64,000 nucleotides of DNA. It comes from Parvibaculaceae bacterium. GTDB lineage: Bacteria; Pseudomonadota; Alphaproteobacteria; Parvibaculales; Parvibaculaceae. The translations under genes and the position numbers were made by a program. The stretch covers positions 620,001 to 684,000 of the forward strand of contig JAPWJY010000008.1 of assembly GCA_028283765.1 (NCBI GenBank). Reading direction: 5' to 3'. Below the pieces are notes generated by a model. The model made no database searches and was not told the origin of the DNA. It worked only from the letters and a program-made list of their open reading frames with translations. Below are positions 25,402-28,813 of the stretch, piece by piece. The first letter of the stretch is position 1, and each line of letters begins with the position of its first letter.

Positions 25402-25437
25402 TAACAGGCTGTCCTTCTTTCTGCTTTGGAAAAGCAA

Positions 25438-25469
25438 AAGGCCCGAAGCTGGGGGGAGCTTCGGGCCTT
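25438..25469 (-). terminator. Terminator facing the minus strand, away from rpoH
   Basis: A 13-bp stem AAGGCCCGAAGCT/AGCTTCGGGCCTT with a G6 loop (C6 on the minus strand) is followed on the minus strand by TTTTGCTTTT. On the plus strand there is no T-run, though it could still end the methyltransferase transcript. Confidence 0.65.
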
Positions 25470-25733
25470 GAGGATGTTGTCTCTTCCTTGGGGGAGAGTG
25501 GCCCGGTTCTTTCCCGAGCCGGTGGGGCTGGGGGGCTGATGAAAACCGGAACAGGTCAAAACCGGGCCTGAGGCAACGATCACAAGATGCCCCCGCAGTG
25601 TGTTCCGCAAAGGGCTGAATAAAGGCCATATTGTGAAACTGCGGGGCTGCCTGTTTTACGGCGAATCCACCGCTTTCGCCCTTCCGGCGAACCGTGCCGG
25701 GGCCTTGTCTGCCGATGGACCCGCTGCTCAAGA

Positions 25734-25800: not shown

Positions 25801-26718
25801 TCAGGCGCTGGCGCGGGCTTCCGCCCGGGCGTCGGCCTGCTCGCGCGCGGTCTGGCGCATGGCCTTCTGGAGCTTCTCGAAGGCACGCACCTCGATCTGG
25901 CGCACGCGCTCGCGGCTGATGCCATAGCGCTGGGAGAGGTCTTCCAGCGTGGCGGGCTCATCCTTCAGCCGGCGTTCGGTCAGAATGTCCAGCTCGCGCT
26001 CGTTCAGCGTGTGCATGGCCTGCTGGAGCATCTGGCGGCGCAGCTCCATTTCCTCGTTGTCGCCCAGCTCGCTTTCCTGATCCGGACTGTCATCGACCAG
26101 CCAGTCCTGCCATTCGCCGCCTTCGGCGTCGGCGCGCAGCGGCGCGTTGAGCGAGTTGTCGGGTCCGGCGAGGCGCCGGTTCATGCTGATGACCTCATCC
26201 TCGGTCACGCCCAGCTTGGTCGCGATCAGCGCCACCTGCTCGGGATGGAGGTCGCCTTCCTCGATCGCCTGAATCTGGCCCTTGACCTTGCGCAGGTTGA
26301 AGAAAAGCTTCTTCTGCGCCGCCGTGGTACCCATTTTCACGAGCGACCAGGAACGCAGGATATATTCCTGAATGGAGGCGCGGATCCACCACATGGCATA
26401 GGTCGCCAGCCGGAAGCCGCGCTCCGGCTCGAACCGTTTCACGGCCTGCATCAGGCCGACATTGCCTTCGGAGATCACTTCGGCGATGGGCAGGCCATAG
26501 CCGCGATAGCCCATGGCGATCTTCGCCACGAGGCGCAGATGGCTTGTCACGAGCTGATGGGCGGATTCCTTGTCGCCATGCTCGCGCCAGCTTTTGGCGA
26601 GCATGTATTCCTGCTGCGGCTCCAGCATGGGAAACTTGCGGATTTCCTGAAGGTAGCGCGACAGGCTGCCCTCGGGACTCGGGGCCGGCAAATTCTTCAC
26701 TGGTTTGTCGTCGGCCAT
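25801..26718 (-). CDS. rpoH: RNA polymerase heat-shock sigma factor RpoH (sigma-32)
   Basis: The 305-residue sigma factor shows region 2 (LVTSHLRLVAKIAMGYRGYGLPIAEVISEGNVGLMQAV, then the -10-binding AMWWIRASIQEYIL), the RpoH box QKKLFFNLRKVKGQ that marks it as sigma-32 and not sigma-70, and region 4 with LSQRYGISRERVRQIE near the C-terminus. It directs RNA polymerase to heat-shock promoters. ATG 26718 has GGGGGTG upstream. A -10-like TATATTA sits at 26784-26790 on the same strand. Confidence 0.97.
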   Translation of the reverse strand: MADDKPVKNLPAPSPEGSLSRYLQEIRKFPMLEPQQEYMLAKSWREHGDKESAHQLVTSHLRLVAKIAMGYRGYGLPIAEVISEGNVGLMQAVKRFEPERGFRLATYAMWWIRASIQEYILRSWSLVKMGTTAAQKKLFFNLRKVKGQIQAIEEGDLHPEQVALIATKLGVTEDEVISMNRRLAGPDNSLNAPLRADAEGGEWQDWLVDDSPDQESELGDNEEMELRRQMLQQAMHTLNERELDILTERRLKDEPATLEDLSQRYGISRERVRQIEVRAFEKLQKAMRQTAREQADARAEARASA

Positions 26719-26829: not shown

Positions 26830-27882
26830 TCATAATAATTCCAGATTACGAATGAGTAAGGCCAGATCGGCGGGCAATTCATCCTCGAATTCCATGGCCT
26901 CGCCGGTCACCGGATGTTCAAAGCCCAGCCTGTAGGCGTGCAGCGCCTGCCGGTTAAGGCCGTCCAGCGCCGCCTGGGCGGCGGGAGGAAGCCTGTTGCG
27001 CCGGGTTTTCTGGCTGTTGCCGTAAAGCGCGTCGCCCAGCAGCGGGTGGCCGGTCGCGGTCAGGTGCACCCTGATCTGGTGCGTGCGGCCGGTTTCCAGC
27101 ACGCATTCCACCAGCGTCACCAGCGGTTCGGGTTTGCCGAAGGTCTGGAGCACCCGGTAGTGGGTGATGGCCTCGCGCCCGCCGGATTTGACGATGGCCA
27201 TCTTGAGCCGGTTGTTCGGGCTGCGCCCGATCGCCCCCTCGATCATGCCGCTGCGCAGATTGGGCGTGCCCCAGACGAGCGCCAGATAGGCTCGCGACAG
27301 GCGGCCGTCGCGCCCGTGGATGGCGAACTGCTCGGCGAGGTGGCGGTGGGCCCGGTCGGTCTTGGCGACCACCATCAGCCCGCTGGTTTCCTTGTCGAGG
27401 CGGTGGACGATGCCGGGGCGTCGCTCGCCGCCGATGCCCGAAAGCGTGTCGCCGCAATGGGCGATCAGGGCGTTCACCAGCGTCATGTCCGGATTGCCGG
27501 GGGCGGGGTGCACCACGAGGCCTGCGGGCTTCATCACCACGATCAGCTCATCGTCCTCATAGCGCACGTCGAGGGGGATGTGCTGGCCCTGTGGCCGGGC
27601 CGCCACCGGCGGCGGCACATGCACCCGGTAGGCCTCGCCCTCCTTCACCTTGTAGGAGGCGTCGGCCACGGGCTCCTCGCCCGCGGCAAGCTGGCGGAAC
27701 ACCTGTCCCTCGTCCATCAGCGCCTTGAGGCGCGCGCGCGACAGGGCCTCCACCTTGCCCGCGAGCGCATCGGTGAGGTATCTGTCAAGGCGGATGCCGG
27801 CCGCTTCGGCGGGCACCAGCGCCAGATGGCTTTCTGCTGTGTGGCTTTCCGCCATGCCGGCGGGACTGCTGATCGGGGACAT
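26830..27882 (-). CDS. rluD: Ribosomal large-subunit pseudouridine synthase, RluA/RluD family
   Basis: This protein has an N-terminal S4-like RNA-binding domain (RLDRYLTDALAGKVEALSRARLKALMDEGQVF, about 31-64) and the catalytic core with HRLDKETSGLMVVAKTD, whose Asp is the essential residue. It converts uridines of 23S rRNA to pseudouridine; assignment to RluD specifically, over RluC, is by length and context. The start could be ATG 27882 or ATG 27855 (MAESH). The former lets it overlap the start of the divergent DUF6476-like gene. Confidence 0.9.
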   Translation of the reverse strand: MSPISSPAGMAESHTAESHLALVPAEAAGIRLDRYLTDALAGKVEALSRARLKALMDEGQVFRQLAAGEEPVADASYKVKEGEAYRVHVPPPVAARPQGQHIPLDVRYEDDELIVVMKPAGLVVHPAPGNPDMTLVNALIAHCGDTLSGIGGERRPGIVHRLDKETSGLMVVAKTDRAHRHLAEQFAIHGRDGRLSRAYLALVWGTPNLRSGMIEGAIGRSPNNRLKMAIVKSGGREAITHYRVLQTFGKPEPLVTLVECVLETGRTHQIRVHLTATGHPLLGDALYGNSQKTRRNRLPPAAQAALDGLNRQALHAYRLGFEHPVTGEAMEFEDELPADLALLIRNLELL

Positions 27883-28279
27883 GATGCCTGAAGATAAAAG
27901 AGTGCCTGAAGCCTCGACGCCGGAAAGCGTGCCGGTCCGGCGCTCACGCTACACTGTGCTCGTGGGGTCCGTCATCTTTATGGCGGTGATCCTGCTGGTT
28001 GGCCTCGGCGTCGTCGTCTCCACCATCATTTTCCGCGCCCAGACGCACCGGGCCGGAGCCGATCAGGCCTTGCTGGCCAGCGGCGGAGGCTTCGGCATCG
28101 CCGAGCTTCCCATCGGCCACGGCGACAGACTGATGGACATGCAGCTCAATGGCGACCGCCTTGCGCTCCACATTGGCAATCCGCAGTTCGAGGAAGTGGT
28201 GCTGGTCGATGCCCGGACCGGCCGCGAGACCGGGCGGATACGCCTGCGCGTCCCGACGGACTTCGCCGGAAACAACTGA
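27881..28279 (+). CDS. DUF6476-like single-pass membrane protein
   Basis: From ATG 27881 the product is 132 residues: a short cytoplasmic tail, one membrane helix (YTVLVGSVIFMAVILLVGLGVVVSTIIF, about 22-49) and a soluble domain with DGDRL-like NGDRLALHIGNPQFEEVVLVDARTGRETGRIRL. It resembles the DUF6476 family that commonly lies next to rluD in alphaproteobacteria (from memory). Longer frames upstream would run through the start of rluD on the other strand. Function is unknown. Confidence 0.7.
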   Translation: MMPEDKRVPEASTPESVPVRRSRYTVLVGSVIFMAVILLVGLGVVVSTIIFRAQTHRAGADQALLASGGGFGIAELPIGHGDRLMDMQLNGDRLALHIGNPQFEEVVLVDARTGRETGRIRLRVPTDFAGNN

Positions 28280-28315
28280 GCGGACATCATCAAACGCTGG
28301 AAGAGGGGGAGATTA

Positions 28316-28405
28316 GGCCGCCTGTACCGGGGGGAGGAGGGGAGGTTGGTACAAGCGGCCGATCTTGAAAGTCATAGGTCGGGGAGGAGGTCGACCAAAT
28401 CTTTC
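28316..28405 (-). ncRNA. Candidate CCUCCUCCC-loop small RNA (cuckoo/CcsR-like)
   Basis: On the minus strand two stem-loops each display a C-rich anti-Shine-Dalgarno-like loop. One has stem GGTCG/CGACC (28377-28381 with 28392-28396) and loop ACCTCCTCCC, extended by GAAAG/CTTTC (28367-28371 with 28401-28405). The other has stems GGCCGC/GCGGCC (28316-28321 with 28355-28360) and GTACC/GGTAC (28324-28328 with 28348-28352) around AACCTCCCCTCCTCCCCCC. Paired CCUCCUCCC hairpins define the alphaproteobacterial cuckoo/CcsR RNAs. A TTGACA lies upstream (28441-28436). A plus-strand RNA with GGA-rich loops is the alternative, since six Ts follow at 28412. Confidence 0.55.
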
Positions 28406-28721
28406 GGAGGCTTTTTTGCCCTCAATCTGACAAACTGTCAACGCGATAAATGGTGCAACGCAAAATTTGATGTGCCTGGCACACCAGTTTTGCGGCCGGA
28501 CGAAATTTGAAAATCATTTATTTTCAATATGTTGTTAATTCTGGAATGATTCCGGTTCGCATCGGTGCGCCCGAATGCCGCAGTCCTGTTTGCACTGCAG
28601 TTTCAGGGCAGGGGATGGCTTTGTCTCAAGAGGGTATGCCGATTTCCGGCAAGCGCCGGATTCGCCCCGTTTCTTTGTCTTCCGGCACCCCTTGATCGAT
28701 CTTTGCAAGCCCTATATACCC
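28406..28721. other. Intergenic region before tRNA-Glu
   Basis: No protein-coding frame here is convincing. It contains a TTGACA on the minus strand (28436-28441), an AT-rich inverted repeat (28507-28527) and the tRNA promoter (28692-28718: TTGATC and TATATA). Confidence 0.5.
28507..28527. repeat. AT-rich inverted repeat, possible operator
   Basis: TTGAAAAT (28507-28514) and ATTTTCAA (28520-28527) are perfect inverted repeats with a five-base spacer in an otherwise GC-rich genome. No adjacent protein gene makes its target obvious. Confidence 0.4.
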
Positions 28722-28738: not shown

Positions 28739-28813
28739 GTCCCCATCGTCTAGCGGTCAGGACATCACCCTCTCACGGTGAAGACCGGGGTTCGATTCCC
28801 CGTGGGGATACCA
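28739..28813 (+). tRNA. tRNA-Glu (anticodon CTC)
   Basis: The sequence folds as a cloverleaf: acceptor GTCCCCA (28739-28745) with TGGGGAT, anticodon stem TCACC/GGTGA around loop CTCTCAC, and T-loop GTTCGATTC. The anticodon CTC is at 28772-28774. The discriminator is A28810 and CCA is encoded at 28811-28813. It reads GAG codons. Confidence 0.95.

Follow-up and report, generated by a model that had tools for sequence, protein, structure and literature searches.

Small RNAs with anti-Shine-Dalgarno (anti-SD) loops are widespread in Alphaproteobacteria, and the signals that control them are mostly unclear. Among the closest described systems is NfeR1, the founder of the ar14 family (Rfam RF02344; Sinorhizobium and relatives), which is Hfq-independent and has an NtrC site of the form TGC-N11-GCA (PMC10746234), and for which anti-SD silencing has been shown (PMC10746234, PMC7143759). 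The CcsR1–4 RNAs of Rhodobacter (RSs0680a; RF02791) are cut by RNase E from a ccaF1 (DUF1127)–CcsR transcript that is made from an RpoHI/RpoHII promoter (PMC10253847). MmgR and SisA–D (alpha-r8) have one single-stranded UUUCCUCCCU core beside a weak hairpin and lack paired loop motifs (PMC12559287); the MmgR promoter carries a PhaR site, and PhaR represses MmgR in Sinorhizobium (PMC12542648). AbcR1/2 (alpha-r15, suhB) form three stem-loops, occur as tandem copies by lsrB and bind Hfq (PMC7143759).

A two-hairpin RNA compared with known families

The locus described here lies in a 64-kb stretch of Parvibaculaceae DNA, hereafter the window. A preliminary description of this DNA had pointed to two minus-strand stem-loops with C-rich loops, and both the sequence and the predicted fold bear it out:

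28311..28411, minus strand: body of the two-hairpin anti-SD sRNA, from the extent of the covariance-model match, with the 5' end placed near 28406
28367..28405, minus strand: hairpin 1, loop ACCUCCUCCC, from the fold and structure-pair counts (helices 1 and 2)
28316..28360, minus strand: hairpin 2, 13-bp stem, loop AACCUCCCCUCCUCCCCCC, from the fold (z −5.2) and pair counts

Hairpin 1 comprises an outer stem, GAAAG/CTTTC (28405–28401/28371–28367, minus), and an inner stem, GGTCG/CGACC (28396–28392/28381–28377, minus), with the loop ACCTCCTCCC; the stem of hairpin 2 pairs 28360–28348 with 28328–28316 (minus) around the loop AACCTCCCCTCCTCCCCCC. The motif CCTCCTCCC occurs just twice in the window, at 28332 and 28382, once per loop, a count that is unremarkable by itself (at least two copies in 23 of 100 shuffles). 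Folding of the minus strand gives −43.5 kcal/mol (z −4.5), and none of 200 shuffles folded equally well. A covariance model, R1, built from 28 sequences with the window's own among them, matches the locus at 78.3 bits (E 4e-14), the second-best match in the window scoring 16 bits. Across the 28 aligned loci, CTCCTCCC is conserved.

Conserved loops and covarying stems in relatives, proposed earlier as a check, are both present. In the 28-sequence alignment 16 of the 22 stem pairs change on both sides (7 of 10 in hairpin 1 and 9 of the 12 aligned pairs in hairpin 2), and 93% of paired cells are complementary, whereas shuffles give 82% and sliding the partner strand leaves no more than 45%; pairing is kept in 85–87% of cells in hairpin 1 and in 99% in hairpin 2. 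The covariation score is 0.427, against 0.194 for shuffled alignments and at most 0.103 with the partner slid. The RNA thus shares the defining traits of the cuckoo RNAs, namely at least two hairpins that each carry a CCUCCUCCC anti-SD loop, and stems of variable sequence in which pairing is maintained.

The preliminary description had assigned the locus to the cuckoo/CcsR RNAs. This appears to hold for the functional kind and for the novelty of the locus, and fails for Rfam ar14 and CcsR1 with respect to score, DUF1127 context and promoter. The Rfam covariance search that it had suggested does return both families at the right place and on the right strand, at 18.8 bits for ar14 (gathering score 58.8) and 15.3 bits for CcsR1 (gathering score 65.3), both below gathering. 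The best CcsR1 score of an orthologue in relatives is 33.5 bits, and the ar14 gathering score is reached in 0 of 61 genomes. Sub-threshold matches to the two families in relatives have E values down to 2.4e-4 and, lying on the same strand, support a kinship of kind. In one genome outside the family, G060, a DUF1127-like gene is followed by a canonical tandem CcsR cluster (G060:C1:244800-246500, minus), which scores 56.9 bits with ar14 and 52 bits with CcsR1; since it falls below both gathering cut-offs, these cut-offs miss likely true members.

Set beside the individual families, the RNA resembles ar14/NfeR1 in the unpaired CCUCCUCCC of each loop, the hypervariable stems, and a sigma-70 promoter that is preceded by a conserved element and by a TGC-N11-GCA dyad. 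It differs in having two hairpins rather than three, in being a single syntenic copy beside rluD–rpoH that lacks a U-run in this genome, and in carrying PhaR-type and TetR-type sites where NfeR1 has the LsrB motif TGCA-N6-GCAT. With CcsR it shares two hairpins and an anti-SD loop in each, but it is a lone gene with its own sigma-70-like promoter and no RpoH-type promoter, and its neighbours are rluD, rpoH and tRNA-Glu, with no DUF1127 gene. MmgR is likewise a short sRNA with a CU-rich anti-SD core, yet it belongs to a different RNA family. AbcR1/2 also present CU-rich anti-SD single strands; Rfam gave no match to them here.

It is possible, and in our judgement unlikely, that the RNA is a plain orthologue of the stress-induced cuckoo, CcsR and ar14 RNAs under their usual stress regulation. 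The shared loop motif and hairpin plan, the sub-threshold Rfam matches on the right strand and the ability of R1 to find the CcsR cluster of G060 all speak for such orthology. Against it stand scores under the gathering level in every genome searched, the lack of an adjacent DUF1127 gene, PhaR-type and TetR-type sites in place of an RpoH or CTTAGAC-N17-CTATAT promoter, and one syntenic copy instead of several dispersed ones.

Anti-SD pairing is the most likely mode of action of the RNA, given its C-rich loops and by analogy with NfeR1 and CcsR. The loops could instead serve mainly as a decoy or sponge for a G-rich sRNA or an RNA-binding protein, for which Caulobacter offers a precedent in CrfA, an sRNA sponge that captures anti-SD sRNAs by base pairing to their UUUCCUCCCU core (PMC12559287); we regard this as quite improbable, the demonstrated mode of NfeR1 being anti-SD silencing of mRNAs. 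Neither stress induction nor Hfq binding should be taken for granted for the present sRNA; NfeR1 itself is independent of Hfq.

Other C-rich hairpins were encountered in these searches. Many further ar14-like matches in relatives proved to be C-rich terminator or 3'-UTR hairpins. Five loci of the family (L042, L043, L045, L050 and L051) have intergenic or 3'-UTR hairpins with C-rich loops of the CCUCCCC type before U-runs and weak ar14 matches, and they may belong to a broader class of anti-SD terminator loops. A second ar14-like match in the window (25434–25554, minus) was rejected, as it lacks CCUCCUCCC loops and scores higher as BjrC174, below the cut-off of that family. The corresponding C-rich RNA candidate, at 25436–25637 (minus) directly 3' of rpoH, matches BjrC174 at 35.1 bits (gathering score 45, E 8e-5), and no BjrC174 match was found in the seven loci searched in relatives.

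Distribution, synteny and strand

The following neighbouring features are relevant to the position and the 3' end of the gene:

25801..26718, minus strand: rpoH (TIGR02392), conserved neighbour by synteny
26830..27882, minus strand: rluD-type pseudouridine synthase gene (PF00849, TIGR00005), conserved neighbour by synteny
28297..28315, minus strand: CU-rich tail after hairpin 2, lacking a U-run, by comparison with genera g2, g3 and g4
28739..28813, plus strand: tRNA-Glu(CTC), upstream neighbour, confirmed as a tRNA

A DNA search located the locus in 22 Parvibaculaceae relatives (E at most 0.01), and the R1 search found it in 36 of 40 family genomes, including all 27 complete ones. Each genome has one locus, with two exceptions: G012 contains two, and G016 has a second, weak one. 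Parvibaculaceae represents the whole order among the genomes compared. Outside the family, the sole R1 match among 385 sampled genomes of the class was the known-type CcsR cluster of G060; the filters of this class-wide search were strict, so absence outside the family is provisional.

The sRNA adjoins rluD in the genera examined, and rpoH is also adjacent at nearly all loci. The tRNA-Glu gene that the preliminary description had placed beside the locus is indeed there; it lies upstream of the sRNA only here and in Parvibaculum and is not beside it in g2–g4. The DUF6476-like neighbour was not recovered: the 132-aa open reading frame at 27881–28279 has no Pfam match even at E up to 10, apart from noise. 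The small open reading frame separating the sRNA from rluD varies between genera, and in several genomes an antisense open reading frame of about 400–500 nt lies between the two. Judged by sequence conservation and gene order, the sRNA is an order-wide single-copy orthologue, syntenic with rluD–rpoH.

In g2, g3 and g4 a U-run directly follows hairpin 2, forming an intrinsic terminator. Parvibaculum (L002–L017) has a C-rich, G-poor tract, CCCTCCCCCTCCC, in place of the U-run, and the window has its CU-rich tail there; such replacements might serve in Rho utilisation or act as an additional, third anti-SD segment. On the 3' side of the sRNA, some Parvibaculum genomes (L009, L010 and L011) have repeats of CTGTCAT/TGTGACAG that look like PhoB boxes. 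The shared orientation with rluD–rpoH and the synteny kept in the genera examined would suit a cis-acting 5' leader or attenuator of that downstream operon, a reading that we consider very unlikely, since the terminator in g2–g4 stands immediately 3' of hairpin 2 and the antisense open reading frame intervenes in several genomes.

Wobble pairs were counted in hairpin 2, the part with a secure alignment register. Seven cells are G-U and none is A-C, as expected for a minus-strand RNA. A plus-strand T6 run noted earlier is present at 28412–28417. Being complementary to the −10 region of the minus strand, which reads GATATT or GATAAA in nearly all relatives, it is not a conserved plus-strand terminator. 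A plus-strand RNA with GGA loops binding CsrA or RsmA, the alternative raised in the preliminary description, appears largely refuted and deserves scant credence: the stems do form on the plus strand and the T6 is there at 28412, but that strand folds with a z of −1.2, all seven wobble cells of hairpin 2 would turn into A-C mismatches, the T6 is unconserved, and promoter and terminators indicate the minus strand.

Four observations support a genuine sRNA gene on the minus strand, with paired CCUCCUCCC loops and away from the known loci: its conservation across the family, the covarying stems, the wobbles that fit one strand only, and the sub-threshold matches to ar14 and CcsR1, which have the right place and strand. 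The best explanation of the data is that its product would be a single trans-acting minus-strand RNA of about 100–110 nt, with CCUCCUCCC-type sequences held open in both loops.

Promoter elements and candidate regulators

Upstream of the sRNA, beyond the −35 and −10 elements, three further elements are conserved, namely a PhaR-type palindrome, a TGAC-N5-GTCA motif and a distal dyad:

28413..28418, minus strand: −10 element CAAAAA after a 17-nt spacer (GATATT or GATAAA in most relatives)
28428..28441, minus strand: −35 TTGACA inside the palindrome TTGACAGTTTGTCA, a putative TetR-family operator (TGAC-N5-GTCA in relatives)
28448..28468, minus strand: PhaR-type palindrome AAATTTTGCGTTGCACCATTT, found with the phasin-promoter weight matrix and matching the published TGCRNYGCASMA
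28566..28582, minus strand: distal dyad TGCGGCATTCGGGCGCA, TGC-N11-GCA, of NtrC-like form, conserved in relatives

The minus-strand TTGACA seen in the preliminary description was confirmed at 28441–28436. All loci combine TTGACA with a 17-nt spacer, and in most the −10 is GATATT, GATAAA or close to these; that of the window (CAAAAA) is weak.

The PhaR-type palindrome has the family-wide form TTTTGCRNYGCAMMA, the core of which is the PhaR consensus TGCRNYGCASMA described in Bradyrhizobium (PMC6201568); the Sinorhizobium PhaR motif (PMC12542648) equals the same core. To avoid circularity, the weight matrix was built from 31 PhaR-type sites in phasin-gene promoters of these genomes only, where the sites are mostly TTGTGCRNYGCACAA and often paired about 52 nt apart, and it was run over the 200 nt preceding each sRNA. 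At 34 of 34 loci the top-scoring site falls 15–17 nt before the −35, and each locus thus has the TGCRNYGCASMA palindrome characteristic of the PhaR regulon; at three loci (L005, L022 and L070) the site in this position is weak. The window site scores 20.9, a value reached by none of 200 shuffles, and the strict motif occurs once in the window, at the sRNA promoter, beside the sole TGAC-N5-GTCA. The phaR gene (for example G000:C4:23489-23671) is present in 37 of the 40 family genomes, and the regulator of this palindrome is probably the carbon-storage sensor PhaR. No published case of a cuckoo-type RNA controlled by PhaR emerged from a literature search, which did not extend to Reinkensmeier and Giegerich (2015), where Parvibaculum may be among the listed members.

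The palindrome that spans the −35 reads TTGACANNYTGTCA, and its TGTCA half is foreign to a sigma-70 promoter. TGAC-N5-GTCA overlies the −35 in all 34 family sRNA loci tabulated and occurs in a single copy in the window, at the sRNA promoter. Genome-wide, most genomes have one other copy, which directly precedes a TetR-family gene or, in g2, an acyl-CoA dehydrogenase gene or, in g4, a flavin-monooxygenase-like gene. The TetR-family regulator is encoded by a single-copy gene in 39 of 40 family genomes (for example G000:C3:1697670-1698350, L250), and the motif precedes it in 30 of 30 loci examined, against a background of 0.02 per kb in other loci. The putative operator is thus common to the tetR and sRNA promoters, from which we infer that tetR is autoregulated through it. 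In most loci measured it lies 34 nt before the tetR start codon, so that the tetR mRNA is probably nearly leaderless. The closest profiles to the TetR protein, ScbR, FasR and FadR, all score below cut-off.

As for the distal dyad, 27 of 29 loci carry TGC-N11-GCA at 143–148 nt upstream of the −35. Given the NtrC site of like form at NfeR1, a nitrogen input to the sRNA is possible. Other genomic copies of TGC-N11-GCA are associated with no consistent gene class, bar an aminotransferase gene in two Parvibaculum genomes. Between the distal dyad and the promoter, 23 of 34 loci have an IHF-like WATCAANNNNTTR that deviates at no more than one position; in the window this element is degenerate.

Proposed control and biological meaning

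What is new relative to the preliminary description is the presence of PhaR-type and TetR-type operators, as recognised by motif, in the sRNA promoter. The placement of these operators over and next to the −35 suggests that PhaR and TetR would act as repressors. We propose that the sRNA promoter would be occupied by PhaR and the TetR repressor in cells poor in polyhydroxybutyrate (PHB) and acyl-type metabolites. Transcription of the sRNA would set in once PhaR is titrated by PHB granules and the ligand of TetR builds up. Its C-rich loops could then pair with the G-rich Shine-Dalgarno regions of chosen mRNAs, which would block translation and favour mRNA decay. Carbon-storage and fatty-acid status would thereby be coupled to post-transcriptional silencing, as for PhaR-controlled MmgR, a different RNA, in Sinorhizobium. 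MmgR is the nearest precedent for this wiring, being an anti-SD sRNA of another family that PhaR represses (PMC12542648). Phasin mRNAs found no clear support as special targets, their ribosome-binding sites pairing unremarkably with the loops.

Taken as a whole, we think it likely that the locus encodes a single-copy anti-SD sRNA, conserved across the order and controlled by PhaR and an autoregulated TetR. Cells with ample carbon would produce it, and it would silence mRNAs at their ribosome-binding sites. A fuller version, to which we give about even chances, is that this order-wide core RNA, distinct from ar14, CcsR and MmgR, answers directly to two regulators, PhaR and an autoregulated TetR connected with acyl-CoA metabolism. 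The promoter would then integrate carbon-storage and lipid signals as a logic gate and pass them on to the silencing of translation on a global scale, and the NtrC-like dyad and the IHF-like bend site would add a nitrogen input.

The sRNA would represent an RNA family so far absent from Rfam models. Its gene belongs to the core of an entire order, in which it is syntenic and present in single copy, and the conservation of the promoter is high enough for its probable regulators to be recognised in the sequence. The resulting prediction is that the PHB sensor PhaR and one named TetR gene control the sRNA. MmgR of Sinorhizobium and the present sRNA together suggest that anti-SD silencing became linked to carbon storage on more than one occasion, through different RNAs.
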